A stretch of 64,000 bases of DNA, taken from Altererythrobacter rubellus. GTDB taxonomy: Bacteria > Pseudomonadota > Alphaproteobacteria > Sphingomonadales > Sphingomonadaceae. The translations under genes were made by a program, and so were the position numbers. Shown here in pieces: positions 1-15,055 of the stretch (positions are counted from its first letter, which is position 1; each line of letters begins with the position of its first letter). The notes below the pieces were generated by a model. That model made no database searches, was not told the DNA's origin, and saw only the letters and a program-made list of their open reading frames with translations. The stretch covers positions 124,001 through 188,000 of the forward strand of contig NZ_CP127221.1 in the NCBI RefSeq assembly GCF_030284385.1. The letters run 5' to 3'.

Positions 1-1851
1 TTTCAGCGCCTGCATGGCATGGGTGAGGAAGTCTATGACGCGCTCGCAAAGGCGGAAGGCAATGATCGCACCAATGTTCGGATTTACGCGCCCGTAGGCG
101 GGCACAAGGAACTGCTCGCATATCTGGTCCGCCGGCTTCTGGAGAACGGCGCGAACACCAGCTTCGTCAACCGCATGGCCGATGCGGACATTCCGGTCGA
201 AGAGATGACCGGCGATCCCGTGACCGAACTTGTGGCGCTGGATCCCAAGCGCAATCCGGCGATCCCGCTGCCGGCTAACATTTTCAGCAGCCGCATTAAT
301 AGCGCGGGCGTGGATCTTGCCGATCCGCTTGTACTTGCGCCTTTGCAGGATCAGCTTGCCGCGATTGGGACAAAGCACTGGTATGCCGCGCCAACATTTG
401 CAGGCGAAGAAGCGGGCAAAGAGGCTCCGATCAATGCACCGCAAGATTTAACGCATGAGGTCGGCACACGCCGCGATTCCACCGAGCAAGAGGTTGCCGA
501 TGCGATCACCCGTGCGCTCGATATTCAACCCGGTTGGGATGCATTGGGCGGACAGAAACGCGCGGTAATACTGGAAGCCGCGGCTGAGCTGTTCGAAGAC
601 CATACAGTAGAGTTTTTGTCGCTGTGCCAGCGTGAAGCTGGCAAGACGCTGGTCGATGCTGTGCTGGAATTGCGCGAGGCCGTTGATTTCCTGCGCTATT
701 ACGCGGTTGAAGCGCGGCGCCAGTTTTCCGGCCCGATCACTTTACCGGGGCCGACCGGAGAGGAAAACCTATTGCAGATGCATGGACGCGGCGTCTTTGC
801 CACGATCAGCCCATGGAACTTCCCGCTCGCCATCTTCATCGGTCCGGCAGCCGCCGCGCTTGCAGCAGGAAATACGATTGTTGCCAAGCCGGCTGAACAA
901 ACCCCGTTGATCGCTGCACTTGCAGTCAGGCTCTGCCACGAGGCGGGCATGCCCGAAGAAGCATTCCAATTGCTACCCGGCGCAGGCGATGTTGGGCAAA
1001 TGATCACTAGCGACCCGCGCATAGCCGGCGTTGCCTTCACCGGCTCAACCGAGACCGCCCAGGCCATCAACCGCTCGCTGGCCGCACGAGAAGGCCCGAT
1101 CGCGACCTTTATCGCGGAGACCGGCGGCCAGAATGCGATGATTGTCGACAGCTCGGCCTTGCCCGAGCAAGTGGTGCGTGACGTTCTGGCCAGCGCTTTC
1201 CAGAGTGCGGGCCAACGCTGTTCGGCGCAGCGCATGCTGTACATTCAGGATGACGTGTACGACGAAATGCTGGAAATGATCCGCGGAGCATTTGATGCGC
1301 TGAATGTCGGTGATCCGGTCTTGATGCACACCGATGTCGGCCCGGTGATCGATCCCGATGCCAAAGCCGCGCTGGAACGCCACGTTGCGCGCCGCAAGAA
1401 AAGCGGTGCGAATGTGTGGCGGCACAAACTGCCGCGAGGCACCAGCAAGGGTTGTTTCGTCGCGCCAGCGATCATCGAGGTCAATTCAATCCTCGATCTC
1501 AAGCGCGAGAACTTCGGCCCAATCCTGCATGTTGCAAGGTTTGCGTCCGAAGATCTTGGCAAGGTTATCGGCGATATCAATGCGACCGGGTTTGGCCTGA
1601 CACTTGGCCTGCACAGCCGCATTGCGGCAACCAAGCGTTTTATTGAACAGCGCGCGCGTGTGGGGAATTTCTACGTTAATCGCAACCAGATTGGCGCGGT
1701 GGTGGAGAGCCAGCCATTCGGCGGCGAAGGCCTGTCGGGCACGGGCCCCAAGGCAGGTGGGCCGCATTATTTGGCGCGCTTTGCCACAGAACGGGTCACT
1801 TGCGTCGACACGACCGCGGCGGGCGGCAATGCGAGCCTGCTGGCAGGCTAA
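1..1851 (+). CDS. putA: Bifunctional proline dehydrogenase / P5C dehydrogenase PutA, 3' part
   Basis: The reading frame is open from base 1, so the gene starts before the window; 616 codons are present. The first part (LHGMGEEVYDAL, then RIYAPVGGHKELLAYLVRRLLENGA split over two stretches) is the end of the FAD-dependent proline dehydrogenase barrel. The rest is an aldehyde dehydrogenase module that oxidises glutamate semialdehyde to glutamate with NAD+. Visible ALDH motifs are SPWNFPLAIF, VAFTGSTETA, the general-base region ETGGQNAMIV, the catalytic cysteine in SAGQRCSAQR, and the C-terminal FGGEGLSGTGPKAGG. The C-terminus (ARFATERVTCVDTTAAGG) fits PutA proteins of about 1,040 residues. The DNA-binding ribbon-helix-helix domain of some PutA proteins would lie outside the window, so regulation cannot be judged. 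Family assignment is secure. Confidence 0.95.
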   Translation, partial: FQRLHGMGEEVYDALAKAEGNDRTNVRIYAPVGGHKELLAYLVRRLLENGANTSFVNRMADADIPVEEMTGDPVTELVALDPKRNPAIPLPANIFSSRINSAGVDLADPLVLAPLQDQLAAIGTKHWYAAPTFAGEEAGKEAPINAPQDLTHEVGTRRDSTEQEVADAITRALDIQPGWDALGGQKRAVILEAAAELFEDHTVEFLSLCQREAGKTLVDAVLELREAVDFLRYYAVEARRQFSGPITLPGPTGEENLLQMHGRGVFATISPWNFPLAIFIGPAAAALAAGNTIVAKPAEQTPLIAALAVRLCHEAGMPEEAFQLLPGAGDVGQMITSDPRIAGVAFTGSTETAQAINRSLAAREGPIATFIAETGGQNAMIVDSSALPEQVVRDVLASAFQSAGQRCSAQRMLYIQDDVYDEMLEMIRGAFDALNVGDPVLMHTDVGPVIDPDAKAALERHVARRKKSGANVWRHKLPRGTSKGCFVAPAIIEVNSILDLKRENFGPILHVARFASEDLGKVIGDINATGFGLTLGLHSRIAATKRFIEQRARVGNFYVNRNQIGAVVESQPFGGEGLSGTGPKAGGPHYLARFATERVTCVDTTAAGGNASLLAG

Positions 1852-1893
1852 ACCGCCTTGCTCCTCCGCAAAGCCACGCTAAAACAGCGCGCT

Positions 1894-2424
1894 ATGGGGC
1901 GCTACCTCTCGATCTTGCTCGCATTGCTCACATTCGGCTGGGCATCACCAGCGCTGGCTGATGTCCAGCTCAGCTTTCACAGTTTCAACGGCTCGGTGCT
2001 GTTCGGGCGGTACCCGCATGCATTCATTGTGCTGGAGGGCGAGCTTGAGAGTTCAGGCGAAGTCATCAACGAGAATTACGGGTTTACCGCCAAAACGGTC
2101 AGCACCCGGATTCTGAACGGGCCGGTGGAGCACGATATCTCTATCGAAGAGCCAAAGTACATCAGGAAGACCAACCGGCACTTCACAATCACCATAACGG
2201 ACGCGCAATATCGCGAAGTCATCGCTCTCATGCGCGCCTGGCGCGATGCGCCTGGCAAATATTACGATCTCGACAAGCGCAATTGCATCCATTTCGTTGG
2301 TGAGATCGCCAAGATAATCGGCCTGAGGGTTGAGTATCCTGAAAATATGCTGCGTCGCCCGAAGAAATGGCTCAATCACGTTACCAGCCTCAATCCGCAA
2401 TTGGGCGCGGAGGTAATCAATTGA
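1894..2424 (+). CDS. Secreted protein of unknown function, possible permuted NlpC/P60-like fold
   Basis: A 176-residue protein using the ATG at 1894; an in-frame TTG at 1858 would add 12 residues before the signal peptide and is less likely. The start MGRYLSILLALLTFGWASPALA is a typical Sec signal peptide cut after ALA. The mature protein has a His in YPHAFIVLEG near its start and a Cys in DLDKRNCIHFVGEIAKIIG near its end. The order beta-strand His, then helix-starting Cys, is the arrangement in circularly permuted NlpC/P60 (LRAT-like, YiiX-like) papain-fold enzymes. That is an inference from pattern; I do not recognise a named family. It follows putA by 42 bases and may share its transcript. 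Confidence 0.75.
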   Translation: MGRYLSILLALLTFGWASPALADVQLSFHSFNGSVLFGRYPHAFIVLEGELESSGEVINENYGFTAKTVSTRILNGPVEHDISIEEPKYIRKTNRHFTITITDAQYREVIALMRAWRDAPGKYYDLDKRNCIHFVGEIAKIIGLRVEYPENMLRRPKKWLNHVTSLNPQLGAEVIN

Positions 2425-2658
2425 GTCAACCAGCAGGTAATGGGAAGACGCCAGCGAAGCACCGACGGCCGTATTCCGGATCGGAAGCTGACACTTAAGA
2501 TTGTCAGTTGCTGTCACAAATATCGCAGATTGGACGATCTTCTCTCACATAACCTTCGCCGAAGCCAACGGTCCGTTTTCAGCGCGATACGAAAGACTCC
2601 CCCAGATAAATTCGCGGCCCTGCTTGCCCCGCGCGCGGCCTTCGGGAATCACTCGGTT

Positions 2659-3213
2659 ATGGCGATTCTTTCAGATAAATGGATTCGGGAACAGGCCCAG
2701 ACAAATGGCATGATTGAGCCATTTGTAGAGGCGCAACGCCGCGAAGGCTGCATTTCCTATGGCCTTAGCTCTTTCGGCTATGACGCGCGGGTTGCACCCG
2801 AGTTCAAGATCTTCACTAACGTCAATTCGGCGACTGTTGATCCGAAGAAGTTCGATGCGGAAAGCCTGGTGGATCGCGAAACCGACGTTTGCATCATCCC
2901 GCCCAATAGTTTCGCGCTCGCGCGCACGGTCGAATACTTCCGCATTCCTGAAGATGTGCTGGTAATCTGCCTTGGAAAGAGCACCTATGCCCGCTGCGGC
3001 ATCATCGTGAATGTCACGCCGCTGGAGCCGGGCTGGGAAGGTCATGTGACGCTGGAATTTTCCAACACCACGCCGCTGCCGGCCAAGATCTACGCCAACG
3101 AAGGCGCATGCCAGTTTCTATTCCTCAAAGGCAATGAACGGCCCGAAGTCACCTATGCCGATCGCGCGGGCAAATACATGGGGCAGCGCGGCGTGACCTT
3201 ACCCCGCCTTTAA
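2659..3213 (+). CDS. dcd: dCTP deaminase
   Basis: A 184-residue enzyme that deaminates dCTP to dUTP, supplying dUMP for thymidylate synthesis. The start at ATG 2659 gives the standard N-terminus [13 protein letters not shown]; the frame is open further upstream but carries no family sequence there. Characteristic segments are [13 protein letters not shown], the nucleotide-binding [20 protein letters not shown], and GHVTLEFSN with the glutamate that acts as general base. The C-terminal tail [13 protein letters not shown] closes the active site in the trimer. Length and motifs match the monofunctional trimeric Dcd family. The 234 bases upstream (2425-2658) hold no other gene I can support. It lies in the window with nrdA, nrdB and guaA but is not in an operon with them. 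Confidence 0.96.
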
Positions 3214-3301
3214 AATCGCGATTCCGCGGAACCGCTGTTCCGTAACGGCTTTGACTCTCTGAAGCATGGCGCGCATCAAGCCAGCTTAAAGGAGAGCAAA
3301 T

Positions 3302-4483
3302 ATGTCCAAGGACAATCGCGAATTCGATATCATCGTCTATGGAGCAACCGGTTATACTGGCCGTCTGGTCGCCGAATATCTCGATCAGCACTACGGCAAC
3401 CGCGAAGATTGCCCCAGCTGGGCGATGGCCGGTCGCAGTCTGGACAAGCTGGAGGCTGTGCGCGACGAGATTGGCGCACCGGACACAACCCCGCTGGTGG
3501 TTGCCGATGCGAACGATCCGGCTAGCCTTGAGACCATGTGCAATCGCACCCGCGTGGTGCTGACAACAGTCGGCCCGTATCAGCTCTATGGCGATGCGCT
3601 GGTCGAAGCCTGTGTGAAGACCGGCACTGACTATGCGGATCTGTGCGGAGAACCAGGTTGGATGCGCGAGATGATCGACGAGCATCACGAAGCCGCCAAG
3701 GCATCTGGCGCGCGGATCTGTTTCTCAAGCGGGTTCGATTCTATCCCGTTCGACCTCGGCGTGATGATGACTCAGAAAGAAGTCGAGAAGCGTACCGGGA
3801 AACCGTCGCCGCGTATTCGCGGGCGTGTCCGCGCGATGCAGGGCACTTTCTCAGGCGGGACAGCGGCCAGCCTGACTGAGACAATGAAGGCGGTTGCGCG
3901 CAAGCCCACACTGCTTGCCGTGTTGCGTTCTTCATTCGGCCTTACTCCGGGCTTTGAAGGGCCCGAGCAGCCATCGGGCATGATTCCGCACTATGAAAAG
4001 GATTTGGACAAATGGGCCGCGCCATTCGTGATGGCACCGATCAATACCAAGAATGTCCACCGCACCAATTTTCTGGCCGGTTTCCCCTATGGTGAGGACT
4101 TCGTTTATGACGAAATGATGCTGACCAGTCCGGGCGAGGCAGGCAAGGCCGCAGCAAATGCGGTGGCGGAAATGATGAAGAACCCCTTCGGCGCAAAGCC
4201 GCCGAAGCCGGGCGAGGGGCCCAGCAAGGAAGAACGCGAGAACGGCTTCTATGATGTGCTGTTCGTGGCCGATCTGCCCGATGGCGAGACCCTGCATTTC
4301 GGCGTCAAAGGCAAGTATGATCCGGGCTATGGCTCGACCAGCCGTATGCTGACCGAAACCGGCATTGCGCTGTTATCCTGCGACAAGTCAGGTGGCGTTG
4401 GCACGCCGGGCTCATTCCTGGGCGAGGCCCTGGTTGACCGTTTACAGGAACACGCCGATCTGACGTTCGCAGTCGAGAGCTAA
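3302..4483 (+). CDS. Saccharopine dehydrogenase-like NAD(P)-binding oxidoreductase
   Basis: A 393-residue protein with an N-terminal Rossmann motif (VYGATGYTGRLVAEYL, about residues 12-27), then AMAGRSLDKLEAV and the TTVGPYQLYGDALVEAC stretch typical of the saccharopine dehydrogenase-like / trans-acting enoyl reductase family. Further family marks are DYADLCGEPGWMREMID and SSGFDSIPFDLGV. Bacterial members are mostly uncharacterised oxidoreductases; mycobacterial relatives act with polyketide synthases on lipids. No lysine-pathway genes lie nearby, so a role in lysine metabolism is not supported. A ribosome site (AAAGGAG) precedes the ATG at 3302. It stands alone, 88 bases after dcd, and converges on the TonB receptor gene across a shared hairpin. 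Confidence 0.85.
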   Translation: MSKDNREFDIIVYGATGYTGRLVAEYLDQHYGNREDCPSWAMAGRSLDKLEAVRDEIGAPDTTPLVVADANDPASLETMCNRTRVVLTTVGPYQLYGDALVEACVKTGTDYADLCGEPGWMREMIDEHHEAAKASGARICFSSGFDSIPFDLGVMMTQKEVEKRTGKPSPRIRGRVRAMQGTFSGGTAASLTETMKAVARKPTLLAVLRSSFGLTPGFEGPEQPSGMIPHYEKDLDKWAAPFVMAPINTKNVHRTNFLAGFPYGEDFVYDEMMLTSPGEAGKAAANAVAEMMKNPFGAKPPKPGEGPSKEERENGFYDVLFVADLPDGETLHFGVKGKYDPGYGSTSRMLTETGIALLSCDKSGGVGTPGSFLGEALVDRLQEHADLTFAVES

Positions 4484-4493
4484 GCCGCAAAAG

Positions 4494-4520
4494 GGGGGAA
4501 CGGCACGGCGCCATTCCCCC
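4494..4520. terminator. Hairpin between converging genes
   Basis: A G-run followed by AA pairs with TTCCCCC about 12 bases later, forming a GC-rich stem between the stop at 4483 and the converging stop at 4545. There is no strong T-run on either side, so termination strength is uncertain. The position suggests it serves both genes. Confidence 0.5.
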
Positions 4521-4544
4521 TGTTCGGATCGTTCCGTTAAAGCG

Positions 4545-6680
4545 TTAGAAACTGAAGCGGACGCTAGCTTTGATGTTGCGGCCAGCCAGCGGTAAGAATT
4601 CCTTCGTAAAGCTGGAATGGCGGCGGCCCGTCGTATCGAAAAGGTTTTCACCGGCAAGCTGTACCACGACATTCTGATTGTCAGAAAGCGGGCGCCAGGA
4701 GAGGAACAGATTTACAAAGGCAAAGTCGTCTGTCGGAGTTTCAAATTCGGCAACATTGTTTTGCTCACCAAACCACTGCACCTCGCTGCGAACAGTGAAA
4801 GCAGAAAAATCCGATTCAAGTGCAGCAAGCACACTTACCGGGGGGATTCGGGGTACATTACCTCCATTGTCAAGGTCTGCAGAGACATAGGATGCTCGCA
4901 AATCTGCAGTCAGATTGTAGGAGTCGTTGTCAATCAGCGGGACAACAAGATCGGCTTCGAAGCCAAAGAAGTCCGCGTCATCCTGCAGGAACTCAAACAC
5001 CGGCAACTCATCTTCTTCTTCTCCTGTCGGAGAGAGATAGATGAAGTCATCGAATGATTGGTAGTAAACCGAAGCACCGAACTGCGCTGCGCCGATTCCG
5101 GCACGCGCGAACAGTTCGACACCAAGTGCACTTTCCTTGTCCAGGTTCGGATCGCCAATTTCAAAGGCTTGCGTCGCGATATGCGGACCGTCCGCGAAGA
5201 GTTCTTCGCCAGCCGGTGCGCGCTCTGCCCGAGACCCTGTGATCCCGAAGCGTGCTCCGCCTTCAGTCTCACGGACCAGCGACAACGCACCCGAGAACAG
5301 GCTGAAATCACGCTCAAGTCCGAGCGGCCCTGACTCGACATCGACTTGCTCGAAGCGGCCAGCAGCTTCGATCTGGAATCCGTCCAAATCGAATTCCTGT
5401 ACAGTGAAGAGTGCAAACTGCGTTGTCTCGTTGGGCGATACAAATGCTTCTTCTCCGACGGCAGAGAAGTCACGCGATGTGAATTGCGCTCCGATGACAC
5501 CGCCAGTGGTTTGAACCAGCTCTGCACGCGCTTCGATCGTTTCTGTATCGAAGACTGTTCCGACTTCTGTGCCTTCGAACTCTATATGGGTGTAGTCAGA
5601 ATAGCCACCGCGCAGCTTCAGGCGAGAGAAGAGGCCATCGCCGAGCGTGATATCGCCGCGCAAATCGACGCGAAGCTGTTCAAGGCCGATGGAGACAGTT
5701 TCTTCCTCTTCACCCTCTTCCTCTTCCACTTCGCCTTCTTCGCCGTGGTGGTGGCCGCCTTCGGGATTACCGACCAGACCATAGCTGGTGTCGTAGTAAC
5801 CTACCGACGCGCCGAAAGTTGATTCGCCCACAATGAGGCCAATCCCGCCGTTTACGGTCCACGTTTCTGTCGCGCTGTTAGGTACAAAGCCGCGCTGTTC
5901 AGCAGCTTCGCGAAGCTCTTCAGCTTCTTCGAGCTCCCCTTCGTCTTCCTCTTCATCCGCATCTGCCAAAAGGTCCAAACGCAGGTCTTCGGAAAGCTGG
6001 AAACCTGGAATCTCAAGATCGTCAGTCTCACGGTATGAGCCGTCAAAGTGCACGACGAGGTTTTCGCCAATTCCGGCATCAACAGAAAGCCCGCCGCTGC
6101 GCAGCTCACTAGCTGTGTCAAACGCTGTCAGGCCTTCAATGTGCAAGCCATGCTCTGGCATAGCGACTGGCATGCGGCGATCGATCACGTTCACCACACC
6201 ACCGATGGCCTGGCTGCCGTAAAGCAGCGCAGCCGGGCCGCGCAGCACTTCGACGCGCTCAACGGTCAGCGGATCAATCGACGTCGCGTGGTCGGCAGAG
6301 GTGTTGCCAACGTCAGCTGTGCCCAATCCGTCGATGAGAACGCGGACGCGTTCACCATCCAGACCGCGCAGGATCGGGCGCGATGAACCAGGGGAAAAAC
6401 TGGTTGCCGAAACACCAGGCACTTTGACGAGAAGATCACCCAATTGACCCGTCAAGTCGCGCTGGATCTCCTCAACTTCGATCACGTCCTGACCAGCAAT
6501 GAAGTCCAGTTCGCTTAACGCGTCGGCAGAAACGATAATGGTTCCGCGGTCATGCGGATCGGTCTCTGTGCCTTCACCAGATGCATTGTCCTGCGCATAT
6601 GCCGGGGCAGACACAGCCGTCAAAGCCAGTGCAGTTGCAATTGCGCTTTGCGAAACAAGGTTCGCTCCATTGATTTTCAT
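4545..6680 (-). CDS. TonB-dependent outer-membrane receptor, probable zinc (ZnuD-like) type
   Basis: A 711-residue receptor. The ATG at 6680 is chosen because GAGGGAAA precedes it and the signal peptide (MKINGANLVSQSA up to AYAQ) begins there. A plug domain follows: QRDLTGQLGDLLVKVPGVS, SRPILRGLDGERVRVLIDG, ERVEVLRGPAALLYGSQAIGG. The barrel ends with FSF. Two acidic segments stand out: DADEEEDEGELEEAEEL and, after NPEGG, HHHGEEGEVEEEEGEEEE. Histidine- and acid-rich loops are a feature of ZnuD-like zinc receptors of Neisseria and Acinetobacter, so zinc is the favoured substrate (inference); nickel or another metal is possible. An imperfect palindrome lies upstream at 6734-6747. It is transcribed away from the secreted-protein block. 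Confidence 0.88.
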   Translation of the reverse strand: MKINGANLVSQSAIATALALTAVSAPAYAQDNASGEGTETDPHDRGTIIVSADALSELDFIAGQDVIEVEEIQRDLTGQLGDLLVKVPGVSATSFSPGSSRPILRGLDGERVRVLIDGLGTADVGNTSADHATSIDPLTVERVEVLRGPAALLYGSQAIGGVVNVIDRRMPVAMPEHGLHIEGLTAFDTASELRSGGLSVDAGIGENLVVHFDGSYRETDDLEIPGFQLSEDLRLDLLADADEEEDEGELEEAEELREAAEQRGFVPNSATETWTVNGGIGLIVGESTFGASVGYYDTSYGLVGNPEGGHHHGEEGEVEEEEGEEEETVSIGLEQLRVDLRGDITLGDGLFSRLKLRGGYSDYTHIEFEGTEVGTVFDTETIEARAELVQTTGGVIGAQFTSRDFSAVGEEAFVSPNETTQFALFTVQEFDLDGFQIEAAGRFEQVDVESGPLGLERDFSLFSGALSLVRETEGGARFGITGSRAERAPAGEELFADGPHIATQAFEIGDPNLDKESALGVELFARAGIGAAQFGASVYYQSFDDFIYLSPTGEEEDELPVFEFLQDDADFFGFEADLVVPLIDNDSYNLTADLRASYVSADLDNGGNVPRIPPVSVLAALESDFSAFTVRSEVQWFGEQNNVAEFETPTDDFAFVNLFLSWRPLSDNQNVVVQLAGENLFDTTGRRHSSFTKEFLPLAGRNIKASVRFSF

Positions 6681-6733
6681 GGGCTTTTCCCTCGTTAGCT
6701 CTAATTGCCCAAGGTGATCCCCACCTTGTATGT

Positions 6734-6747
6734 AATGATGTAACATT
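6734..6747. promoter_or_regulatory. Candidate metal-regulator operator (AATGATGTAACATT)
   Basis: AATGATGTAACATT is an imperfect palindrome (10 of 14 positions match its own reverse complement) about 54 bases upstream of the TonB receptor start and within the region shared with the divergent secreted-protein gene at 6854. Zur sites of proteobacteria are AT-rich palindromes with GTTA/TAAC cores, which this resembles on one side only. The assignment rests on resemblance and context. Confidence 0.3.
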
Positions 6748-6853
6748 GCGTTTAGCAAATTGTTGTCGTGGCGCAAGCAAAGAATTTGTGTTAGGCAGGC
6801 TATTCGAGTTAACTGCGTGATCTTTTTGAACGCACCTGACTGTAGAGTGAAAA

Positions 6854-7318
6854 ATGAAAATTCGCCAAATTACCTTTTCTGCGGGTATTATAGCCTTAAT
6901 TCTATCGAGTGCGACCTCAGCACAAGAGGTCACTCAGAATCCCAGTTTTGGATCGACTAGTTTAGATGCTGGGTTCAGACCTGACCCCTACACAGTAAAC
7001 TTAAGATCGGGCGGCAACATCGATGCAAAAGACTTGGGCGGAGATTGCGCCGGCTGGATTGCAGATGCCCCAGATTATCGCCTCATTTATAAAGCTGGTG
7101 CTTTGCCGTTGATCATTACCGTGGAATCCGATGTAGACACCACACTTATCATCAATACTCCGAATGGAAATTGGCTTTGCGATGATGACGGCGGTGGCGA
7201 CCTTGACCCTGAGGTCAAGCTATCAAAACCTCAAAGCGGACAGTATGATATTTGGGTTGGGACGTACAACAACAGCAGCGTTGAACCTGCGATCTTGAAG
7301 TTCTCTGAGGTTGAATAG
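6854..7318 (+). CDS. Secreted protein with a PPC-like domain
   Basis: A 154-residue protein with a signal peptide (MKIRQITFSAGIIALILSS, cleavage near TSA-QEV). The mature part resembles the small beta-sandwich pre-peptidase C-terminal (PPC-like) domain: DYRLIYKAGALPLIITVES, DTTLIINTPNGNWLCDDDGG and SGQYDIWVGTY. The acidic CDDDGGGDLDPEV loop may bind calcium. PPC-like domains usually hang on secreted proteases; here it forms the whole protein, as seen in many stand-alone alphaproteobacterial proteins. Two cysteines (in GGDCAGW and NWLCDDD) could form a disulfide in the periplasm. Its DNA is AT-richer than flanking core genes. It diverges from the TonB receptor. Function unknown. Confidence 0.75.
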   Translation: MKIRQITFSAGIIALILSSATSAQEVTQNPSFGSTSLDAGFRPDPYTVNLRSGGNIDAKDLGGDCAGWIADAPDYRLIYKAGALPLIITVESDVDTTLIINTPNGNWLCDDDGGGDLDPEVKLSKPQSGQYDIWVGTYNNSSVEPAILKFSEVE

Positions 7319-7433
7319 CAAGGAAGCGAAAGCTTTAACGGCTAGCCCTAGGTATATTAAAACCAAAGATTATCACACGACTTGTTTGCCCGGTCGCTCG
7401 GGCTCGTTTTCATATTCATTCCAGCATCACTGC

Positions 7434-7874
7434 TTATTGAACTATAAACATGTTCGTGGTGAGATCTTCAACAGAACCGCAAACCTCTGCCATTTCCTTA
7501 AAAAGAGATTGCCAACGCTCGTCAGAATTTTGCCAAGTCATGGCCTGTTCCATTGAATTTTTTGAGGTATGAACATCGATAGAAACCAATGCCCCATCCT
7601 GGTGTATCGCCGGTGCAGCTGAGTATGGATGAGGAGATGCATCTCGCTCATAAGATATCATTGTTTTAAGAAGAGAAAGTCCAATTTCCGTATTGGCGCA
7701 GGGCCAGTGGTATACGATTACGATTTGGCCGGATAAAGCTGCTGGCGCCACCCGATTAGCCGTTTCATTATGACCGGAATGTGCGTGATCTTCAGCATTC
7801 GCGACGCCTGACATGCTCATACTTGCCGCTATGGCAGCTACCGCCGTGATTGCCATCTTCGGTGCTCGAACCAT
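7434..7874 (-). CDS. Secreted unknown protein, single copy of the domain duplicated in the gene at 8238
   Basis: A 146-residue protein from ATG 7874, which follows GGAAGGGA; the frame is open upstream but only this start gives a signal peptide (MVRAPKMAITAVAAIAA up to GVANA). The mature N-terminus EDHAHSGHNET is histidine-rich and could bind metal. The remainder (IVIVYHWPCANTE, SMEQAMTWQNSDERW, LFKEMAEVCGS, LTTNMFIV) shares a helix-then-CGS-then-LxTxM pattern with the first repeat of the protein encoded at 8238-9011 (EVLSEFNEVWTCGS, LSTSMIV). I infer a common dimeric alpha+beta-barrel-like fold. No known family is recognised. The 363 bases between it and the next gene separate the transcripts. 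Confidence 0.65.
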   Translation of the reverse strand: MVRAPKMAITAVAAIAASMSMSGVANAEDHAHSGHNETANRVAPAALSGQIVIVYHWPCANTEIGLSLLKTMISYERDASPHPYSAAPAIHQDGALVSIDVHTSKNSMEQAMTWQNSDERWQSLFKEMAEVCGSVEDLTTNMFIVQ

Positions 7875-8237
7875 CTTAATTCCCTTCCAGTATTTCCGTT
7901 CTCGATTAGCATGGGGTGGCCACAAATCAAAGCAAGAGATATCCCAATTTATCAAGATGAGTTGCATGTGCGGTCCTCTACACTGCCGAAGAAGCCGAGA
8001 TCCTGTCTAAACCCTCAACAACTACGACACTACCTCGATGCGTACTAGCCGCCACCATGACAAAAGATTTTACCTAGCCCTAATGTACCGCCTCACGCTA
8101 AACCCGAAGCCGGTCAACTATAGCCATTAGAACCCCAATTTGAGCCGTATCCTACCTTAATGGGGCACGTCATTTGTGAATAAAATGACGCCGCCCACTT
8201 GGACGGCGCCTTTGTATGCGACTTTGGCTTTGAGAGC
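7875..8237. other. 363-base intergenic region
   Basis: It lies between two minus-strand genes. Its right end holds the terminator-like hairpin at 8183-8213, and its left end must contain the promoter for the gene starting at 7874. Reading frames here are short and show no family features. I see nothing else in it. Confidence 0.5.
8183..8213 (-). terminator. Rho-independent terminator after the two-domain secreted protein gene
   Basis: Read on the minus strand, GGCGCCGTCC and GGGCGGCGTC pair around an AAGT loop and are followed by ATTTTATT. It starts about 25 bases past the stop at 8238. Confidence 0.75.
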
Positions 8238-9011
8238 TTAGCGGTTTGGACCTCTTGCCAAGGTAGCGTTGTATACACGCTCGCTGTTACATTCCATGAT
8301 AGGATTAAACGTTTGGAACGCACGCATCCATCCACCTTCGTTAGCTATTATGTCCTCGAAGCGGCCCTTCTCTTGCATGTCAGGAAACCATGTGGAGATT
8401 TTAACACCGTATTCATTATCAGGGTCTTCCCCGGCCCCTGGCAGATGGTAAGCAACGGTCGCCTTTACCTCGTTCTCGTCGAGATATTCAAACCACGATT
8501 TCTGTACGGCGAATAAATCAAGCACAGATTTTCCATCCTTGAAGGTGCAATCAGTAAAGTCCACGACCGCCGTGCTGCTTGGCGTAGGAGGCTGTGGCCG
8601 CACAATCATGCTGGTGCTGAGTGATTGGGAGCCGCAGGTCCAAACCTCATTGAATTCAGATAGAACTTCTCCGCCATTGGCGACCCAGTCATCCTTGGCT
8701 TGACCCATTGCTTCAGCACTGGGGGATGCACCAAACCAAAACGCGGTCCTCCCGCCATTTAACTCGGAGTGATAATGAGGCGTTAGGACCCAAGCAAAAT
8801 AATTGTTGAGGTCTTGTTCATTTGACCAGCTGTTCCATTTGGAAACCACATCCATCAGGTCCACAAGAGATTTGCCGTCATTATACTGGCAGGCAATAGT
8901 CTCGACTTTGCCCCAACTAGGTGCGGACATGTGGTCGTCTGCAGACACTGGTGCTGCTAACATTGTTGCAGCCATAGCCGAAGCCGCCAAAAGATTTATT
9001 TTAAGTTTCAT
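8238..9011 (-). CDS. Secreted protein with two tandem copies of an unknown domain
   Basis: A 257-residue protein from ATG 9011, where a signal peptide begins (MKLKINLLAASAMAATML up to PVSA). The mature protein is an internal duplication. Repeat 1 has ACQYNDGKSLVDLMDVVSKW and later WTCGSQSLSTSMI; repeat 2 has DCTFKDGKSVLDLFAVQKSW and later MECNSERVYNATL. Each begins with Cys-x-x-x-DGKS and ends with a second Cys, so each may hold one disulfide. A Pro-rich linker (PQPPTPSS) joins them. Such helix-plus-strand repeats suggest paired alpha+beta barrels (inference). It lies 35 bases after the lipoprotein gene at 9047, probably in one operon, and has its own terminator. Function unknown. Confidence 0.75.
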   Translation of the reverse strand: MKLKINLLAASAMAATMLAAPVSADDHMSAPSWGKVETIACQYNDGKSLVDLMDVVSKWNSWSNEQDLNNYFAWVLTPHYHSELNGGRTAFWFGASPSAEAMGQAKDDWVANGGEVLSEFNEVWTCGSQSLSTSMIVRPQPPTPSSTAVVDFTDCTFKDGKSVLDLFAVQKSWFEYLDENEVKATVAYHLPGAGEDPDNEYGVKISTWFPDMQEKGRFEDIIANEGGWMRAFQTFNPIMECNSERVYNATLARGPNR

Positions 9012-9046
9012 GTAAGTATGCCTCCCAACACTTCGCAAGATTCAAA

Positions 9047-9661
9047 TTAATTTTGAAAATCGTAGTACCCTTCCAAAGGGATCATCAAATGATCAAAGCC
9101 GGTGCCCTTAAACATCAAATAGGGCGCGCCGCTGGTAAAATCAGTAGTGGTATTCGCGATAGTAGAAACGTCTGCAGGCATCATCATAAGATGGGGACCG
9201 CTAACGATCCAATGCGCCGGATTAGCTTCTTCGATAGACATAGCAGTGTGGTCAAAGTTGTCTGCACCCATGTCGCCATGGAGCATCCACATCCAGCCAT
9301 CTGTCTCTAAAGCAGGTTGTTCGCCTGCCATATAGGCCTTCATCCAAGCTTGAGCCGCTTCATCCGAGCAAGCCGGGACGGCCTCCCGAACAGTTGCATA
9401 ACCAGTGTCAGGCATTGGCATTGGACTAGCTGACTGGCATGTCCATCCGTTGGTACCTTCTTGCAAAACCGTTCCATCAGGTGCGATAACAGTTGCGTTG
9501 TCTCCGATGAATGAAGGAGCCGCTGTAGTAAGCGCCCACAAAATCCATTCACTTTCATTGTGCGCCACAGCAGGCTCCCCCGTACCCCCCGGAGCTTCTG
9601 CATTGTTAGCAGAGCACGCGGCAAGCAGGGTCGCAACAAACGCAAGGATCATCTTTTTCAT
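9047..9661 (-). CDS. Conserved lipoprotein of unknown function
   Basis: A 204-residue protein with an N-terminal lipobox (MKKMILAFVATLLAACSA; cleavage before Cys16), so it should be processed by Lgt and LspA and anchored in a membrane. The mature part is rich in Met, Trp and Pro: EGTNGWTCQSASP, ETDGWMWMLHGDMGADNFD, VSGPHLMMMPADVSTI, and APYLMFKGTGFDHLMIPL. The WTC, SGPHLM, and PYLMxKGTxxxHLMIP motifs recur, from memory, in uncharacterised proteins of marine bacteria. Several His and Met residues could bind metal, but this is untested. It is the first gene of a probable two-gene operon with 8238-9011. Confidence 0.75.
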   Translation of the reverse strand: MKKMILAFVATLLAACSANNAEAPGGTGEPAVAHNESEWILWALTTAAPSFIGDNATVIAPDGTVLQEGTNGWTCQSASPMPMPDTGYATVREAVPACSDEAAQAWMKAYMAGEQPALETDGWMWMLHGDMGADNFDHTAMSIEEANPAHWIVSGPHLMMMPADVSTIANTTTDFTSGAPYLMFKGTGFDHLMIPLEGYYDFQN

Positions 9662-9751
9662 GTGAGATCTCTCTGACTTTCTCTATCCCAATATTTGCTA
9701 CGGAATGAAAATTAGTTGGAAAACGAGTCGTGTGAAAATGAGCTGATCTAC

Positions 9752-10186
9752 TTAGAGCTTTAGTTCGGAGACATCGAATCTCGCTGTCTTGTTGACGAAA
9801 TCAATTTCACCAATAGCAAAATTAAGTTTACCATTTGATACCGCATCGAAAGTATAAAGCTTAAATACCTTTCCAGCTTTCACCCAAACACCTTGAAGGG
9901 TACCCGTTACGATCTCTTCTCCATTTTGCGTCCAAGCGAACCCTGTGAATTCACCCATGGTGTCTAAATTCTGTTTGTTCGTAAAATCATATGACAAATA
10001 AACGCGGCCATAAGGACCTGCCTCTCCAGACAGCGAGGCTTTGAATGTTTCCGCATCGACATCCACAGCATCAATTTCGAATTCAGCCACGAATTGCTCA
10101 TTAACATCAAGAGATTGCGCCAGGGCCGCGGAGCCCGGCATTACAGTTAAAAGCAAAGTTCCAAATATAACTGATAGAAAACGCAT
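9752..10186 (-). CDS. Secreted unknown protein, paralogue of the divergent gene at 10405
   Basis: A 144-residue protein with AAGGAGCG ahead of ATG 10186 and a signal peptide (MRFLSVIFGTLLLTVMPGS up to ALAQ). The mature part is predicted mostly beta: AGPYGRVYLSYDF, GFAWTQNGEEIVTGTLQGVW, GKVFKLYTFDAVSNGKLNF. It aligns along most of its length with the neighbouring divergent protein (EGYGKVYATYHL, GRGFTADGFASGRFQGFW, GVVVMRNVVKITDDTMNL), so the pair arose by duplication. Low-identity paralogues facing away from one promoter region suggest co-regulated but specialised products. No known family is recognised. Confidence 0.7.
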   Translation of the reverse strand: MRFLSVIFGTLLLTVMPGSAALAQSLDVNEQFVAEFEIDAVDVDAETFKASLSGEAGPYGRVYLSYDFTNKQNLDTMGEFTGFAWTQNGEEIVTGTLQGVWVKAGKVFKLYTFDAVSNGKLNFAIGEIDFVNKTARFDVSELKL

Positions 10187-10404
10187 TTGACGCTCCTTTA
10201 TTCAAGATCTTGAAATTTGTGAATGTATCCAATTTTATTTCTAATCGATTCGAGATGCTAAGATCTAAATATTTCATGTCAATGACAATTTTTATGTTCA
10301 ATTTTTGATTATCAAGGCAATTAGAAAATTCTTGATAGTGATTCCTTATCTGTATATATTAATGCAATATAGAGAAAAAAATGATATTTTACAAGGATTT
10401 AACT
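10187..10404. promoter_or_regulatory. AT-rich divergent promoter region with palindromes
   Basis: This 218-base region between the two divergent paralogues is strikingly AT-rich: the 60 bases from 10261 contain only 14 G or C. It holds a perfect 14-base palindrome TTCAAGATCTTGAA at 10201-10214, right beside the start of the left gene, and the inverted repeat TATCAAG (10310-10316) / CTTGATA (10331-10337) closer to the right gene. TATATT near 10352 is a plausible -10 element for the right gene. Confidence 0.5.
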
Positions 10405-10830
10405 ATGAAAAAATTCTTTTTGGCCAGTTTATTCATTTTGGCAGCGCCTGCGGCAGCTAGCGGTCATAGCGAACTTGGTTTGGAAAAGCGGCAACCAGAC
10501 ACAGCTATGAACGTAACGTCAGTTGTTTTGGGTCAAGAGGTGACATCGATCAGTGCCGAAGGTGACATGGAGGGGTATGGGAAAGTTTATGCCACTTACC
10601 ACCTTACATACGATCCTCAGAGGACCAGTGGTACTGTGGACGGTCAAGGACGAGGGTTCACCGCTGATGGATTTGCATCCGGAAGATTTCAGGGGTTCTG
10701 GCAACTAGTTGACGGTGTGGTTGTAATGCGGAATGTCGTGAAAATTACCGATGATACGATGAATTTAGACGTAATCAGATTTAATCCGCTCTCAAGAGAT
10801 TTAATCGTTCAGGCGTACATCTTAAAGTAA
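10405..10830 (+). CDS. Secreted unknown protein, paralogue of the gene at 9752
   Basis: A 141-residue protein. ATG 10405 is preferred over the in-frame ATG at 10381 because AAGGA lies at the right distance and the signal peptide (MKKFFLASLFILAAPAAA) starts there. The mature domain matches the divergent neighbour at 9752-10186 in order of strands and in the YGxVYxxY, F(Q/L)G(F/V)W and final xxL motifs. There are no cysteines, enzyme-like motifs or membrane segments, which fits a small beta-rich periplasmic or secreted protein. A strong terminator follows directly. Function unknown. Confidence 0.7.
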   Translation: MKKFFLASLFILAAPAAASGHSELGLEKRQPDTAMNVTSVVLGQEVTSISAEGDMEGYGKVYATYHLTYDPQRTSGTVDGQGRGFTADGFASGRFQGFWQLVDGVVVMRNVVKITDDTMNLDVIRFNPLSRDLIVQAYILK

Positions 10831-10834
10831 ATCG

Positions 10835-10864
10835 AAAAGGCCTGCTCTAGCAGGGGCCTTTTGC
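10835..10864 (+). terminator. Rho-independent terminator
   Basis: AAAAGGCCTGCT and AGCAGGGGCCTTTT form a nearly perfect stem with a short loop and a terminal T-run, 5 bases after the stop at 10830. Confidence 0.85.
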
Positions 10865-10997
10865 GCTGCCGGAGGCGAGCCCATCGCCGGTCACTGCGCC
10901 GTGTGAAACACAACGGTAGCGAGTGGGTCTCCAAATACGAGTATTGCGACCGAGCGATTTACAAGAACAGATCTGGGAAATGGGTCGAGCGGCCGAC

Positions 10998-12344
10998 TTA
11001 GTTCACAACTGCTTCGCTGACTAAATCGAGGAATTTGCGAAAGTCGTACTCTGCATAATATTCAGCTCCCGAACCCCGCGGCAAACTAGCAAGCCAGTTA
11101 CTTTGTTGCGTTGCGTCGAGATCCAAGAGCATCGAACGCTCGCCCGTAGCATTTAGGATCGGCTCATATAAGCTTGATCGAACGACGACAATTTGACGCT
11201 CGACATCAACTGCTATCATCTGACCGTCAAAGCCAAGTGCTACGATAAAACGTCGACCACTTTGGGTGTCAGTGAACCAAAATTGGGAAAAATAGAATGC
11301 CTGCGGTTGTTTAGCGGCCTCGACGATAGAGTCGATATAGCTTCGCGAAATCACTTGTTTACCGCCGTATGAGCCCCGATTGAGAATTAACTGCCCCAAG
11401 CGCGCAAAGTCCCTCGGCTTCGCATCAAGGCAGCAGTAGCTGAGGATGTTCCCTGCTCTCTCTTGGGAATTATCTGTCCACCATTCCGCGTCCATTCCAA
11501 TTAGTGAGAATAGGTTACGCTCAGCCCATTCAGAAAGGTGATCGCTTTGCCCGCGAGAGAGAACCTCTCCTAATATCATGGTGTCACAATTAGAATAAAC
11601 CCATGCTCGATCTGGATAGGGAGCTGTGCCGTTTTGCCACCATGGGTACTGGTTTCCAGGCTGTGCCAAACCTCTGGTAAGGCATGGTGTCATTTGATCA
11701 TCAACCCATATTAGGTTGCCGCCATTTGCATACTCTGAACCGCACTCGTTCGCCTGCCTGCTCGTAGGATCAGAGCAAATCGGAACCAGTCCAGAGCGCA
11801 TATCAAGAACATCTCTCAGAGTTATGCTTGATCTTGCATCCGTTGCTAGTTCATTCAGATATAGCCCAGCGGTGTCTTGGGTAGATCGGACAATCCCCTT
11901 ATCAATGCCAATTCCCAAAAGTATCGAGGTGAAGGATTTTGCTACCGACCAAGATGTTGCAGGGCTATCTTTGTCGCGATCCCCATACCTACTCACCAAA
12001 TCAGCAGCAGAGAGTTCCACGATCCTAGAAGCTGCAAAGTCTGCTTCCTGCTGTGAGATGCCGCGATATTTTTCGAACGCAATTTTGCCGTTTTTTACTA
12101 CGATAAAGGCTTGTCCATAGGTTCCGTCTCGAAGCGCGAGACTTGCTGCCTCCTCTAATTTTTCTGAGGAAAGACCAACCTCTTCCGGGGTCACCTCTTG
12201 CCACGCCAGTGGGTCTGGAGACGTTGATGCGATTGGCGCTGGCTGTGGGCTTTCGGAGTTATCTTCTCCACCACAAGCAGACAGAGACAGGAATGCAAGC
12301 GCTGAAAAAAAGAGATTTCGACACCCCCGATTCTTTAACATCAC
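10998..12344 (-). CDS. Serine hydrolase lipoprotein of the beta-lactamase / penicillin-binding fold
   Basis: A 448-residue protein with a lipobox (FLSLSACGG, Cys24) and then a Ser/Pro-rich linker. The hydrolase domain carries the SxxK nucleophile motif S133-V-A-K136 within ATSWSVAKSFTSILLG, the YxN motif Y250-S-N252, and the TLRDVLDMRSGL helix typical of class C beta-lactamase / EstB-like esterases. The late FDGQMIAVDVERQIVVV segment occupies the place of the KTG strand. Members include esterases and D-aminopeptidases, so resistance should not be assumed. Several extra cysteines suggest disulfides. It converges on the paralogue gene and ends just left of the tRNA-Gly region. Composition is AT-richer than the core genes, so it may belong to the accessory block. 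Confidence 0.85.
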   Translation of the reverse strand: MMLKNRGCRNLFFSALAFLSLSACGGEDNSESPQPAPIASTSPDPLAWQEVTPEEVGLSSEKLEEAASLALRDGTYGQAFIVVKNGKIAFEKYRGISQQEADFAASRIVELSAADLVSRYGDRDKDSPATSWSVAKSFTSILLGIGIDKGIVRSTQDTAGLYLNELATDARSSITLRDVLDMRSGLVPICSDPTSRQANECGSEYANGGNLIWVDDQMTPCLTRGLAQPGNQYPWWQNGTAPYPDRAWVYSNCDTMILGEVLSRGQSDHLSEWAERNLFSLIGMDAEWWTDNSQERAGNILSYCCLDAKPRDFARLGQLILNRGSYGGKQVISRSYIDSIVEAAKQPQAFYFSQFWFTDTQSGRRFIVALGFDGQMIAVDVERQIVVVRSSLYEPILNATGERSMLLDLDATQQSNWLASLPRGSGAEYYAEYDFRKFLDLVSEAVVN

Positions 12345-12510
12345 CTAACCTCCTGATCGCACAAAGCTAACTTGAAATTTAAACTTTCGATAATCCCCCA
12401 GGGCAGCGGTTTCCATCCTGAAGCGATGTTATCCGGATATCCGTATATGATCCGTATATTGTTTATTTTGGGATTTTTGGAGATAGGGTTCGTCTAAACC
12501 CTTGAAATTA

Positions 12511-12585
12511 TGGAGCGGGCGAGGCGATTCGAACGCCCGACCCCAACCTTGGCAAGGTTGTGCTCTACCCCTGAGCTACGCCCGC
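12511..12585 (-). tRNA. tRNA-Gly (GCC)
   Basis: Read on the minus strand the gene begins GCGGGCGTAGCTCAGGGG, has the anticodon loop CTTGCCAAG (anticodon GCC), a T-arm with GTTCGAATC, and ends CGCCCGCT followed by an encoded CCA. The acceptor stem GCGGGCG/CGCCCGC pairs perfectly. Its 3' end faces the AT-rich accessory block to the left, which is the side where tRNA-targeting elements integrate; no integrase or repeated 3' end was found. Confidence 0.95.
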
Positions 12586-12805
12586 TCACTGACGCTCCGC
12601 AGATTCGGCCAATTGGCATCTCTCTGCTGGGGAGGCGGCGCGATTAGCAGCGCTAGTGCGGCCCGGCAAGCGGAAAATGCTAAGCTTGCACACGCGGCCC
12701 ATCGCCGCCAATGTCCCCCTTCACATTTGCGCAGCATTCCCCACATAAAGGCGGCGTAGGCGGAGCGGTAAATGCTCCGTACAAACCGTATCAGGAGCAG
12801 TTACC

Positions 12806-13723
12806 TTGGCAAGCATGAGCCTCAATCTTGAAGAACAGAAAGCTGTCGACCGCTTCAAGACCAATGTCGTCGAACCGTCGATGACCAAGTTGGTGATCGT
12901 CGATTTCTGGGCCGAATGGTGCGGGCCATGTAAGCAGCTGACCCCGGTGCTGGAGAAAGTTGCAGCAGAATACGCGGACAAGGGCGTTGTGCTAGTCAAG
13001 GTTAACGTCGATGAAGAGAAATTCATCGCATCACAGTTCCAGGTCAAATCGATCCCCACGGTTTACGCCATGTTCCAGGGACAACCGGTGGCCGATATGA
13101 CGCCGGCACGCACCGAAGGCCAGATCAAGCAGATGCTCGACCAGATTCTGGCACAGGTTGCGGTGCAAGCCGGCGCTGATGGTGAACAGCCACAACAGGA
13201 TGTCAGCCAATTCATAGATATGGCAGAGCAAGTGCTTGCCGACGGCGATGCTACGCGGGCTGTGACCATCTTTGCGCAAGTGGTCGAAATGGCACCCGAC
13301 AGCGTCAACGCCCACGCCGGTTTAATTCGTGCATTGATTTCTGCAGGTGAAGCGCAACAGGCGCAGCAGATCTTTGATGCACTGATGCCAGAGATTCAGA
13401 ATGATCCCGGCCTCACGCCGGCCAAAAATGCGCTGGAACTGTCCGCAAGCCAGGTCGATGACAGCGAGCTGGCTGCACTGCGCGATGCTGCCAGCTCTAA
13501 CCCCGATGACATGGATGCTGGATTTGCATTCGCCGAAGCTGCTTTCGCTGCCGGCCAGCGTGACGAAGCCGCAGACACGTTGCTTTCCTTGATCGCCAAG
13601 GACATCGAATGGAATGAAGGCGCCGCCAAGGCGAAGCTGCTGCAGATATTCGAGGTGGTTGGCCTGGAAGATCCGTGGGTTGTCGCCAATCGCCGCAAGC
13701 TTTCACACATCCTGTTCGGCTGA
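12806..13723 (+). CDS. Thioredoxin-domain co-chaperone of the CnoX/YbbN type
   Basis: A 305-residue protein. The TTG at 12806 is chosen because AGGAG at 12792 is 9 bases upstream; ATG 12815 is too far from it. An N-terminal thioredoxin domain has the complete WCGPC active site (C39, C42), then KVNVDEEKFIASQFQVKSIPTVY with the cis-proline. The remainder is alpha-helical with TPR-like repeats (about residues 125-300). This layout is that of CnoX/YbbN proteins, which protect substrates from oxidation and hand them to GroEL. E. coli YbbN lacks a full CxxC while alphaproteobacterial CnoX keeps it, as here. It sits 6 bases before the Lon-N-domain gene, probably in one transcript. Confidence 0.88.
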   Translation: MASMSLNLEEQKAVDRFKTNVVEPSMTKLVIVDFWAEWCGPCKQLTPVLEKVAAEYADKGVVLVKVNVDEEKFIASQFQVKSIPTVYAMFQGQPVADMTPARTEGQIKQMLDQILAQVAVQAGADGEQPQQDVSQFIDMAEQVLADGDATRAVTIFAQVVEMAPDSVNAHAGLIRALISAGEAQQAQQIFDALMPEIQNDPGLTPAKNALELSASQVDDSELAALRDAASSNPDDMDAGFAFAEAAFAAGQRDEAADTLLSLIAKDIEWNEGAAKAKLLQIFEVVGLEDPWVVANRRKLSHILFG

Positions 13724-13729
13724 ACCTGA

Positions 13730-14341
13730 GTGAGCGTGCGGCTTTCTGTATTTCCCTTACCGGGCGTGATCCTTTTTCCGGGATTGCAATTGCCGCTGCA
13801 TATATTCGAGCCGCGATATCGCGCGCTGGTGGGTGACGCGCTCGTTCGCAACCGTCAGATTGCCATTATCCAGCCGAAGAAGCCGGTGGATGGCGCACCG
13901 CTGTACGAGATCGGTTGCGTAGGCCGCATCGGCGACATCGAGGCCATAGACGACGGGCGATATAATCTCGTGCTAGAAGGGCAAGCGCGCTTCCGCGTCA
14001 TTCGCGAGCTTGATGTTACAACCGCTTTCCGACAGGTCGAAGCCGAACTGATCGAAGAAGACGAAGACGCTATACTTTCTGCCGTCGAGCGAGCCGGTTT
14101 TGAACGCGAGGCACGACGCTTTGCCGATAATCAGGGGTACAGTGTAGACTGGAGCTCTATCGAGCGGCTCGACAATGAATCGTTGATCAATGGCGTGTCG
14201 CAGATCGCGCCATTTGATCCAGCGTCAAAGCAGGCGCTGCTCGAAGCGCCGGATATACCCGCAAGGTGCGAACTGCTGATCCAGCTCATGTACTTCTTCG
14301 GCCGCCGCGATGGTGACGATGACCGGGTTACATTGCAATAA
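13730..14341 (+). CDS. Lon N-terminal (LON substrate-binding) domain protein
   Basis: A 203-residue protein starting with GTG 13730, 6 bases after the thioredoxin gene. It consists of a LON substrate-binding domain: SVFPLPGVILFPGLQLPLHIFEPRYRALV split over its first 40 residues, IGCVGRIGDIEAIDDGRYNLVLEG, then a helical part. The AAA+ ATPase and protease domains of Lon are absent, so it is not a protease by itself. Stand-alone LON-domain proteins are common in alphaproteobacteria; their function is poorly known, with adaptor or quality-control roles suspected. Coupling with a CnoX-type chaperone supports a proteostasis role (inference). Confidence 0.88.
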   Translation: MSVRLSVFPLPGVILFPGLQLPLHIFEPRYRALVGDALVRNRQIAIIQPKKPVDGAPLYEIGCVGRIGDIEAIDDGRYNLVLEGQARFRVIRELDVTTAFRQVEAELIEEDEDAILSAVERAGFEREARRFADNQGYSVDWSSIERLDNESLINGVSQIAPFDPASKQALLEAPDIPARCELLIQLMYFFGRRDGDDDRVTLQ

Positions 14342-14396
14342 ACAACTGAACTGCAACCTCGAGTTGCGTTTCCAGGCTTTGCACCTGCAGCAAAAC

Positions 14397-14414
14397 TAAC
14401 TATTCGGTGAGTTA
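14397..14414. promoter_or_regulatory. Candidate TetR operator over the start codon
   Basis: TAACT at 14397 and AGTTA at 14410 form an inverted repeat with an 8-base spacer that runs into the ATG of the TetR gene. Autoregulatory TetR operators often lie here. Assignment by position only. Confidence 0.25.
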
Positions 14415-15055
14415 TGAACTTCGTAGCTTTTCCTACCAAAGGCGAACGCAAAAGGCCGCGCATTGTCGCTAACGCGGCTGAGCTGCTCTGGGAACGTAGC
14501 TTTAACGGTGTATCAGTTGACGAAATCGGCAGCGCAGCCGGGATTAACAAAGCAACAGTGTATCGATACTTTGCTGACAAGGGCGAACTTGCTTTGGCAT
14601 CCGCGCGCGACCATGGCATCCGCACGCTTGAGGAAATGTTCGAACACAGCTTCAGGCAGCATTGAACGCCTGACCAACGCCTCGCAGCGATTTACAATTA
14701 CGCCTATTTCGCAAATGTAGAGATGAATAAGGCCAAGGACGACGTTCTTGGCTACCCGATTATCGGTTTAGTCTTGGAGCTGAATTTTGAAATGCCTCAG
14801 ATCCGCGATGAGGCCGCGAGCATCTTCCTGCAAATCGAAGGTTATATTGAAGAGATTGCACGCGACGCGATCACTGCAGGACGGGTGATCGGCTCTGCAA
14901 AGGTTATCATACGCTCTCTGATGCAGCTCCTCCAAGGCGCATTTTCGTCATCTCGGATAGCTTCTGAGCCTGAGCAGATTCTCGATGCCGGCCACACCTC
15001 GCTGGCCATCATCGGATACCCCGAAACCCGCGTCCAAGCATTGGATTACGGTTAA
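14414..15055 (+). pseudogene. TetR-family regulator interrupted by an in-frame TGA
   Basis: The first part (14414-14665, 83 residues) is a full TetR DNA-binding domain: RIVANAAELLWERSF, SVDEIGSAAGINKATVYRYF, DKGELALASARDHG. It ends at TGA 14663-14665. The same frame then continues without another stop (TPDQRLAAIYNYAYF, MNKAKDDVLGYPIIGLVLEL) to 15055, giving the usual TetR ligand-binding domain. Total length without the stop would be 213 residues, normal for the family. A single substitution (for example CGA to TGA) explains it. The truncated protein could still bind DNA but would lack its dimerisation domain. No partner efflux genes are adjacent, so the target is unknown. Confidence 0.75.

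Follow-up and report, generated by a model that had tools for sequence, protein, structure and literature searches.

Probable remnant of integrative elements beside the tRNA-Gly(GCC) gene of a marine Altererythrobacter-type bacterium

Seven non-overlapping open reading frames (ORFs), distributed over both strands, lie at 6854-12344 between a TonB receptor gene and tRNA-Gly(GCC) in the 2.30-Mb, single-contig genome of a marine Altererythrobacter-type bacterium. All positions refer to the window, which is the whole 64-kb stretch of DNA analysed here (G000:C1:124001-188000). This block belongs to a well-known kind, the decayed genomic island at a tRNA gene, and it is very probably the fixed remnant of at least one integrative element that entered the 3' half of tRNA-Gly(GCC). 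An earlier note on this DNA had proposed an old or decayed acquisition, and four lines of evidence favor that proposal: relatives that lack room for the block, an integrase-bearing element in the same tRNA of a same-species genome, the scar of an attachment (att) arm, and cargo of horizontal origin.

The composition of the block sets it apart from its surroundings. Its G+C content (6854-12510) is 0.472. Across 469 comparison windows of equal length, which avoid the block but overlap each other and are therefore not independent, the mean is 0.579 (standard deviation [sd] 0.011, minimum 0.556). The G+C content at third codon positions (GC3) is 0.39-0.51 in the ORFs of the block, as against a mean of 0.658 (sd 0.052, minimum 0.516) in the 41 other window ORFs of at least 120 aa retained by our script. 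A loose, home-made rule assigns an N-terminus resembling a signal peptide or lipobox to 7/7 ORFs of the block and to 10/41 of the others. Thus far the earlier description of seven consecutive genes for signal-peptide or lipoprotein products, richer in AT than the flanking genes, holds good. It had also counted five of the seven as lacking a known function; the count is six, as only the product of 10998-12344 exceeds a Pfam cut-off (PF00144). Two further statements, that the block abuts the 3' side of the tRNA and that no integrase was seen, agree with our results, with the refinement that about 12430 is the limit of the cargo. Integrase models match none of the seven proteins, and the whole window genome has no match to the one integrase used as a query, that of the same-species genome G002.

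Presence of the block among relatives is patchy, as a comparison suggested in the earlier note has borne out. Among 20 chosen relatives, 15 carry both flank genes on one contig and could be scored; the remaining five could not, either because the flank genes lie on different contigs (G099, G086, G008, and G015) or because no dehydrogenase match exists (G033). The thioredoxin gene of the right flank is matched in 100/100 genus genomes, weak paralogues counted, and the dehydrogenase gene of the left flank in 19 of the 20 relatives. In 8 of the 15 scorable genomes (G044, G078, G076, G012, G062, G004, G071, and G090) there is no room for the block, the gap between dehydrogenase and thioredoxin being 2616-3122 bases, the size of the TonB gene plus the tRNA. 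TonB homology was seen within the gap in six of these eight; in the other two, G062 and G076, it is the shortness of the gap that leaves no space for the block. Longer gaps are found in G089 (7.7 kb), G079 (13.1 kb), G092 (14.0 kb, in a different order), G027 (21.6 kb), G002 (27.8 kb), G020 (65.3 kb), and G057 (67.1 kb), compared with 8.3 kb in the window itself. A gene order conserved throughout the family at normal G+C content, which the earlier note had named as the finding that would speak against its proposal, was not observed.

The earlier note had also pointed to tRNA-Gly as a possible integration site, and G002 confirms this. G002 belongs to the same species, with DNA identities of 99.64% over window 1192-12556 and 99.59% over 12510-14715. 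Within the tRNA, the two sequences agree over a 47-bp core and then part. G002 has about 19.4 kb of additional DNA before its alignment with the window resumes at 12510, and this DNA is bounded by identical copies of the core, which is the tRNA 3' half. A 407-aa tyrosine integrase (PF00589) adjoins the tRNA. The ten proteins of this element that were scanned comprise the integrase, a methyltransferase, HsdM, HsdS, HsdR, a Schlafen/AlbA_2 protein, an AAA protein, a second small recombinase, a T5orf172 protein, and one without a match, and the element encodes a type I restriction-modification system. The window genome is the empty site for this element. Since G002 holds both the block and the 19.4-kb element, the block does not depend on that insertion and probably predates it.

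Integration into tRNA-Gly is recurrent in the genus. Integrases of this family adjoin tRNA-Gly in G002, G033, G027, and G052, and additional copies of the tRNA-Gly 3' half are present in G027, G015, G033, and G008. Of 114 genus genomes, 21 match the G002 integrase at E 0.001; several of these matches are weak. In G002, G033, and G027, the stretch between integrase and tRNA contains a paired repeat, ATCCGTNTATGATCCGTNTAT (up to 3 mismatches), which is also found close to either end of the elements of G002 and G033. The same repeat is located beside a tRNA-Gly half in G047, at three places in G008:C33, and, as a looser match, beside an integrase at tRNA-Thr in G086. Judging by their place, these repeats are presumably integrase arm sites. 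The window carries an exact copy of ATCCGTNTATGATCCGTNTAT at 12439-12459, the single match in 64 kb (expected, 0.00). This copy is 73 bp from the tRNA half, and the corresponding copies in G002, G033, G027, G047, and G008 are at 73-84 bp.

Several observations concern these elements in their own right. G008 apparently contains several tandem elements at tRNA-Gly (L057 4165-5422 and L036 1-3475). Its two contigs here bear no fewer than three additional copies of the tRNA 3' half, and there are three arm-like repeats. The integrases of G033 (L039) and G002 (L032) at the same tRNA-Gly are 91% identical, while the thioredoxin genes differ at a synonymous divergence (dS) of 1.6. The elements of G002 and G086 have a gene set in common, encoding a 192-aa recombinase, a 212-aa clamp-loader-like AAA protein, and proteins of 126 aa and 243 aa (L032 4308-6685 and L078 2226-4606). 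Three genes of this set have dS values of 0.08-0.11, as against 0.98-2.31 between the flank genes of the window, which is near-identical to G002, and those of G086. The 192-aa and 243-aa genes are also present in G033 (L039 5082-7797).

The cargo itself moved horizontally, and in separate pieces. Window 8148-10310, which holds the genes of P0003, P0004, and P0005, is 93.07% identical to G008:C21:663-2825. The hydrolase gene (P0007) has other matches, 10998-12386 being 87.4% identical to G008:C3 and 11362-12431 being 87.4% identical to G086:C32; in G008, cassette and hydrolase are on different contigs. Between the window and G008, the cassette genes have dS values of 0.070, 0.172, and 0.206 and the P0007 gene one of 0.432, as against 1.69 (thioredoxin), 1.35 (LON-type), 1.08 (dehydrogenase), and 2.25 (TonB) in the flanks, these high values being near saturation and meaning just that the divergence is much larger. 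Compared with G086, the hydrolase gene has a dS of 0.34, and three flank genes have values of 0.98-2.31. The recurrence of a 93%-identical cassette in a genome whose flank genes are near synonymous saturation is what indicates horizontal movement in pieces. The ratios of nonsynonymous to synonymous divergence (dN/dS) of P0003, P0004, P0005, and P0007, calculated without a significance test, are 0.29, 0.14, 0.24, and 0.15. These values point to purifying selection on the four genes.

At the tRNA-proximal end of the cargo, window 12331-12431 aligns with the region upstream of the G086 hydrolase and 12431-12566 aligns with the att region of G008. G086, which represents another species, has an integrase-bearing island at tRNA-Thr; within 8 kb beside this tRNA it carries the hydrolase, an integrase, and genes in common with the G002 element. 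The simplest reading of these alignments, together with the G086 arrangement, is that the interval from hydrolase to att arm, integrase included, was lost in the window. We therefore propose a mechanism in which a tyrosine integrase like those that relatives still carry at tRNA-Gly would have recombined the att site of an element with the tRNA 3' half; the end marks of such integration are seen in the G002 element, and for the block we infer them. Later deletion or recombination may have joined the region upstream of the hydrolase to the att arm region at 12431, thereby removing the integrase; the breakpoint is observed, and the deletion would be its likely cause. With the left att copy also lost, the cargo would no longer be excised by that route and would be inherited with the chromosome. 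The cargo would have come in pieces of different age, since relatives of the cassette (8148-10310) are found elsewhere than those of the hydrolase piece (10998-12430). In this proposal, the inferred steps are the entry of the block through tRNA-Gly and the loss of the integrase by deletion.

Several results weigh against this reading. A duplicated tRNA 3' end, which the earlier note had suggested looking for, is present for the G002 element and absent at the left end of the block. Aligned locally to 6600-7000, the tRNA 3' half scores 18 at best, compared with a maximum of 28 among 100 block shuffles, and the window contains no second copy with up to 3 mismatches, so entry at tRNA-Gly is supported by one marked end rather than proven by two. 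A search of the block revealed no fragment of an integrase. The integrase-proximal flank of G052 has no match to ATCCGTNTATGATCCGTNTAT within 3 mismatches, and the motif thus does not mark every element of the site. At base 12431, recombination between two elements is an alternative to simple deletion. The tRNA-Arg about 600 bp from the G008 cassette has no att repeat near that cassette, which lies near a contig start, and the G086 hydrolase is cut by a contig start. G002 and G008 match public metagenome-assembled genomes, in which misassembly at repeats is possible, and G099, the closest other relative, could not be scored since its flank genes are on different short contigs.

It could be argued from the missing left att copy, and from a mosaic cargo with similarity edges at 8148, 10310, 10998, and 12431, that the block was brought in beside the tRNA by homologous recombination or natural transformation and that the att scar derives from an unrelated earlier element. 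We consider this unlikely, however, because the hydrolase of G086 is accompanied by the integrase and shared element genes, and because the scar in the window is joined directly to the region upstream of the hydrolase. Acquisition as one unit of a functional secreted-protein operon with a single task is less probable still. All seven products look exported under the loose rule and three of the genes (8148-10310) recur together, so the secreted-protein module of the earlier note survives to the extent that these three travel as a group; the others have different relatives and places, genes lie on both strands, and G008 carries cassette and hydrolase apart (C21 and C3). Least credible of all is that the lineage inherited these genes from its ancestor, that most relatives have lost them, and that they lie beside the tRNA by chance: the block is indeed common to both same-species genomes and P0004-like genes are fairly widespread (35 of 396 order genomes, own and same species counted), but P0002, P0003, P0005, and P0007 have close relatives in just 2, 3, 3, and 4 of 114 genus genomes, own counted, the shared pieces are far less diverged than the flank genes and stand at other places, and G+C and GC3 are atypical.

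Other origins were considered and rejected. PHROGs models of phage structural and replication proteins (E 0.001) give no support for a prophage, as the sole match links P0007 with the tail protein phrog_382, which has lysin activity, and probably arises through the hydrolase domain; P0004 has no match in a phage collection. P0003 and P0004 have no relative in viral contigs by a pattern search that reaches close relatives only and did not include the other five proteins. Regarding a plasmid, P0003 has no match in plasmids (the five proteins beyond P0003 and P0004 were not searched as proteins), and the best 20 of 186 plasmid DNA records listed match just over the tRNA and its edge. PADLOC has no match for any of the seven proteins, so that a defence island was also set aside.

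With islands of the Islander concept, which according to part of PMC4383910 are tRNA-borne and integrated by tyrosine integrases, this locus shares the tRNA 3' end as target, a family of integrases beside the tRNA in relatives, the displaced tRNA fragment of G002, and signs of tandem elements at one site. The block itself has the patchy presence with empty sites, the atypical composition, and the arm-type sequence beside the tRNA that characterize tRNA islands. Unlike them, it has neither an integrase gene nor a displaced tRNA 3' copy at its far end, and is marked at one end only. The 19.4-kb G002 element and its relatives in G033 and G086 resemble the block in their tRNA (G002 and G033) and arm-type repeat, and the G086 relative has the hydrolase cargo in common with it. 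They differ in carrying an integrase and, in G002, the type I restriction-modification system, and apart from the hydrolase no searched protein of theirs matches the block. The titles and abstract starts of the papers listed do not name this site, a search for integrative tRNA-Gly sites in Sphingomonadales retrieved no paper, and the consulted part of PMC4741004, which treats islands, contains no tRNA-Gly site.

Table 1. Features of the block and its flanks (window coordinates)
Feature	Coordinates	Strand	Remarks
TonB-dependent receptor, left flank	4545..6776	-	ZnuD-like by best match, 330.4 bits, below model cut-off of 950
P0001, exported, 154 aa	6854..7318	+	PPC domain resemblance, sub-threshold
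P0002, exported, 146 aa from ATG at 7874	7434..7874	-	No known family
Three-gene cassette with upstream region	8148..10310		One 93.07%-identical piece common to G008:C21
Terminator-like hairpin of cassette	8187-8210	-	
P0003, exported, 257 aa	8238..9011	-	Two repeats of ~105 aa (by eye)
P0004, lipoprotein-like, 204 aa	9047..9661	-	Two invariant Cys and invariant GxH motif; no Pfam family
P0005, exported, 144 aa	9752..10186	-	
P0006, exported, 141 aa	10405..10830	+	
C-terminal fragment of small ORF	10894..11001	+	Cut at hydrolase edge
P0007, lipoprotein-like serine hydrolase, beta-lactamase/esterase superfamily	10998..12344	-	PF00144
Residual att arm region	12431..12510		Arm-like repeat at 12439-12459; crisp breakpoint at base 12431
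47-bp core, tRNA 3' half	12510..12556		Duplicated around ~19.4-kb element of same-species genome
tRNA-Gly(GCC), attB site	12511..12585	-	3' end faces block
Thioredoxin-domain protein, right flank	12806..13723	+	Conserved in genus

The features of the locus are given in Table 1. Given their predicted export or lipid anchoring, we expect a role for the proteins of the block in the periplasm or on the cell surface. The number of promoter matches in 6600-12700 (11) is within what chance gives (8.2, sd 2.6), and the 3 terminator matches fall short of the number seen in shuffled sequences (6.4, sd 2.5). P0001 does not reach the Pfam gathering cut-off for the PPC domain (16.2 bits, cut-off 25.9); it has matches in 10 of 114 genus genomes, of which two are its own and the same-species genome and eight are at 40-50% identity. 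Among the same 114, P0002 occurs in its own and the same-species genome only. P0003 has four distant, shorter relatives among the 396 genomes and a structure model of low confidence (mean predicted local distance difference test [pLDDT] 52.8). P0006 is a distant paralogue of P0005 (24% over 96 aa, E 5e-5). The fragment at 10894-11001 has no phage match and weakly resembles small ORFs of the genus (42% over 31 aa, E 4.9e-4), one of which adjoins an integrase in G016.

The P0004 family is a candidate undescribed exported family of sphingomonads. Its members beyond the two same-species genomes are at 30-48% identity, and C75, C98, H157, and M159 are among the invariant residues of a 29-sequence alignment, in which no sequence has a Pfam match better than E 0.02. 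No PDB sequence matches P0004 at E 1. The AlphaFold2 model is fair (mean pLDDT 81), with a fairly confident core, and has no convincing match in the PDB, which is not evidence of a new fold; comparison with the cytochrome c'-beta fold gave a VIA Z of 2.5 over 85 residues at a root-mean-square deviation of 4.2, and the best Foldseek hit, to another chain, had an E of 2.1. A conserved P0003-P0004 pair was rejected, as none of the 28 regions around distant P0004 relatives, each extending about 1.5 kb to either side, has a match to any other protein of the block.

P0007 passes the PF00144 gathering cut-off (61 bits, cut-off 27), and SxxK (SVAK) and YSN motifs were seen by eye. Its close copies include those of G002, G008, and G086 (the last cut off by a contig end), while at E 0.001 a total of 113/114 genus genomes match through distant PF00144 paralogues. 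The sequence matches exported serine hydrolases of this family, including the chains of 6-aminohexanoate-dimer hydrolase (4gb7) and Lsa45 (8dc1). P0007 is, however, far under the cut-offs of the class C beta-lactamase models of NCBIfam that it touches (13.4 bits, cut-off 415). From its family alone, we would expect P0007 to act on ester or amide substrates.

As a more speculative proposal, which we consider possible though rather doubtful, the block may come from an undescribed family of tRNA-targeting elements (with the integrase, the 192-aa second recombinase, a phage-type clamp-loader-like ATPase, and the 243-aa protein) that shuttles small exported-protein cassettes among marine sphingomonads. 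Such cassettes would recombine among elements and outlive them, and P0004 would represent an exported family without a Pfam family.

In close relatives, one att site is thus seen empty, occupied, doubly occupied, and decayed, with a base-exact breakpoint. The case shows a route by which the cargo of an integrative element can pass into the ordinary chromosome, and it points to exported protein families of unassigned function that selection seems to keep.

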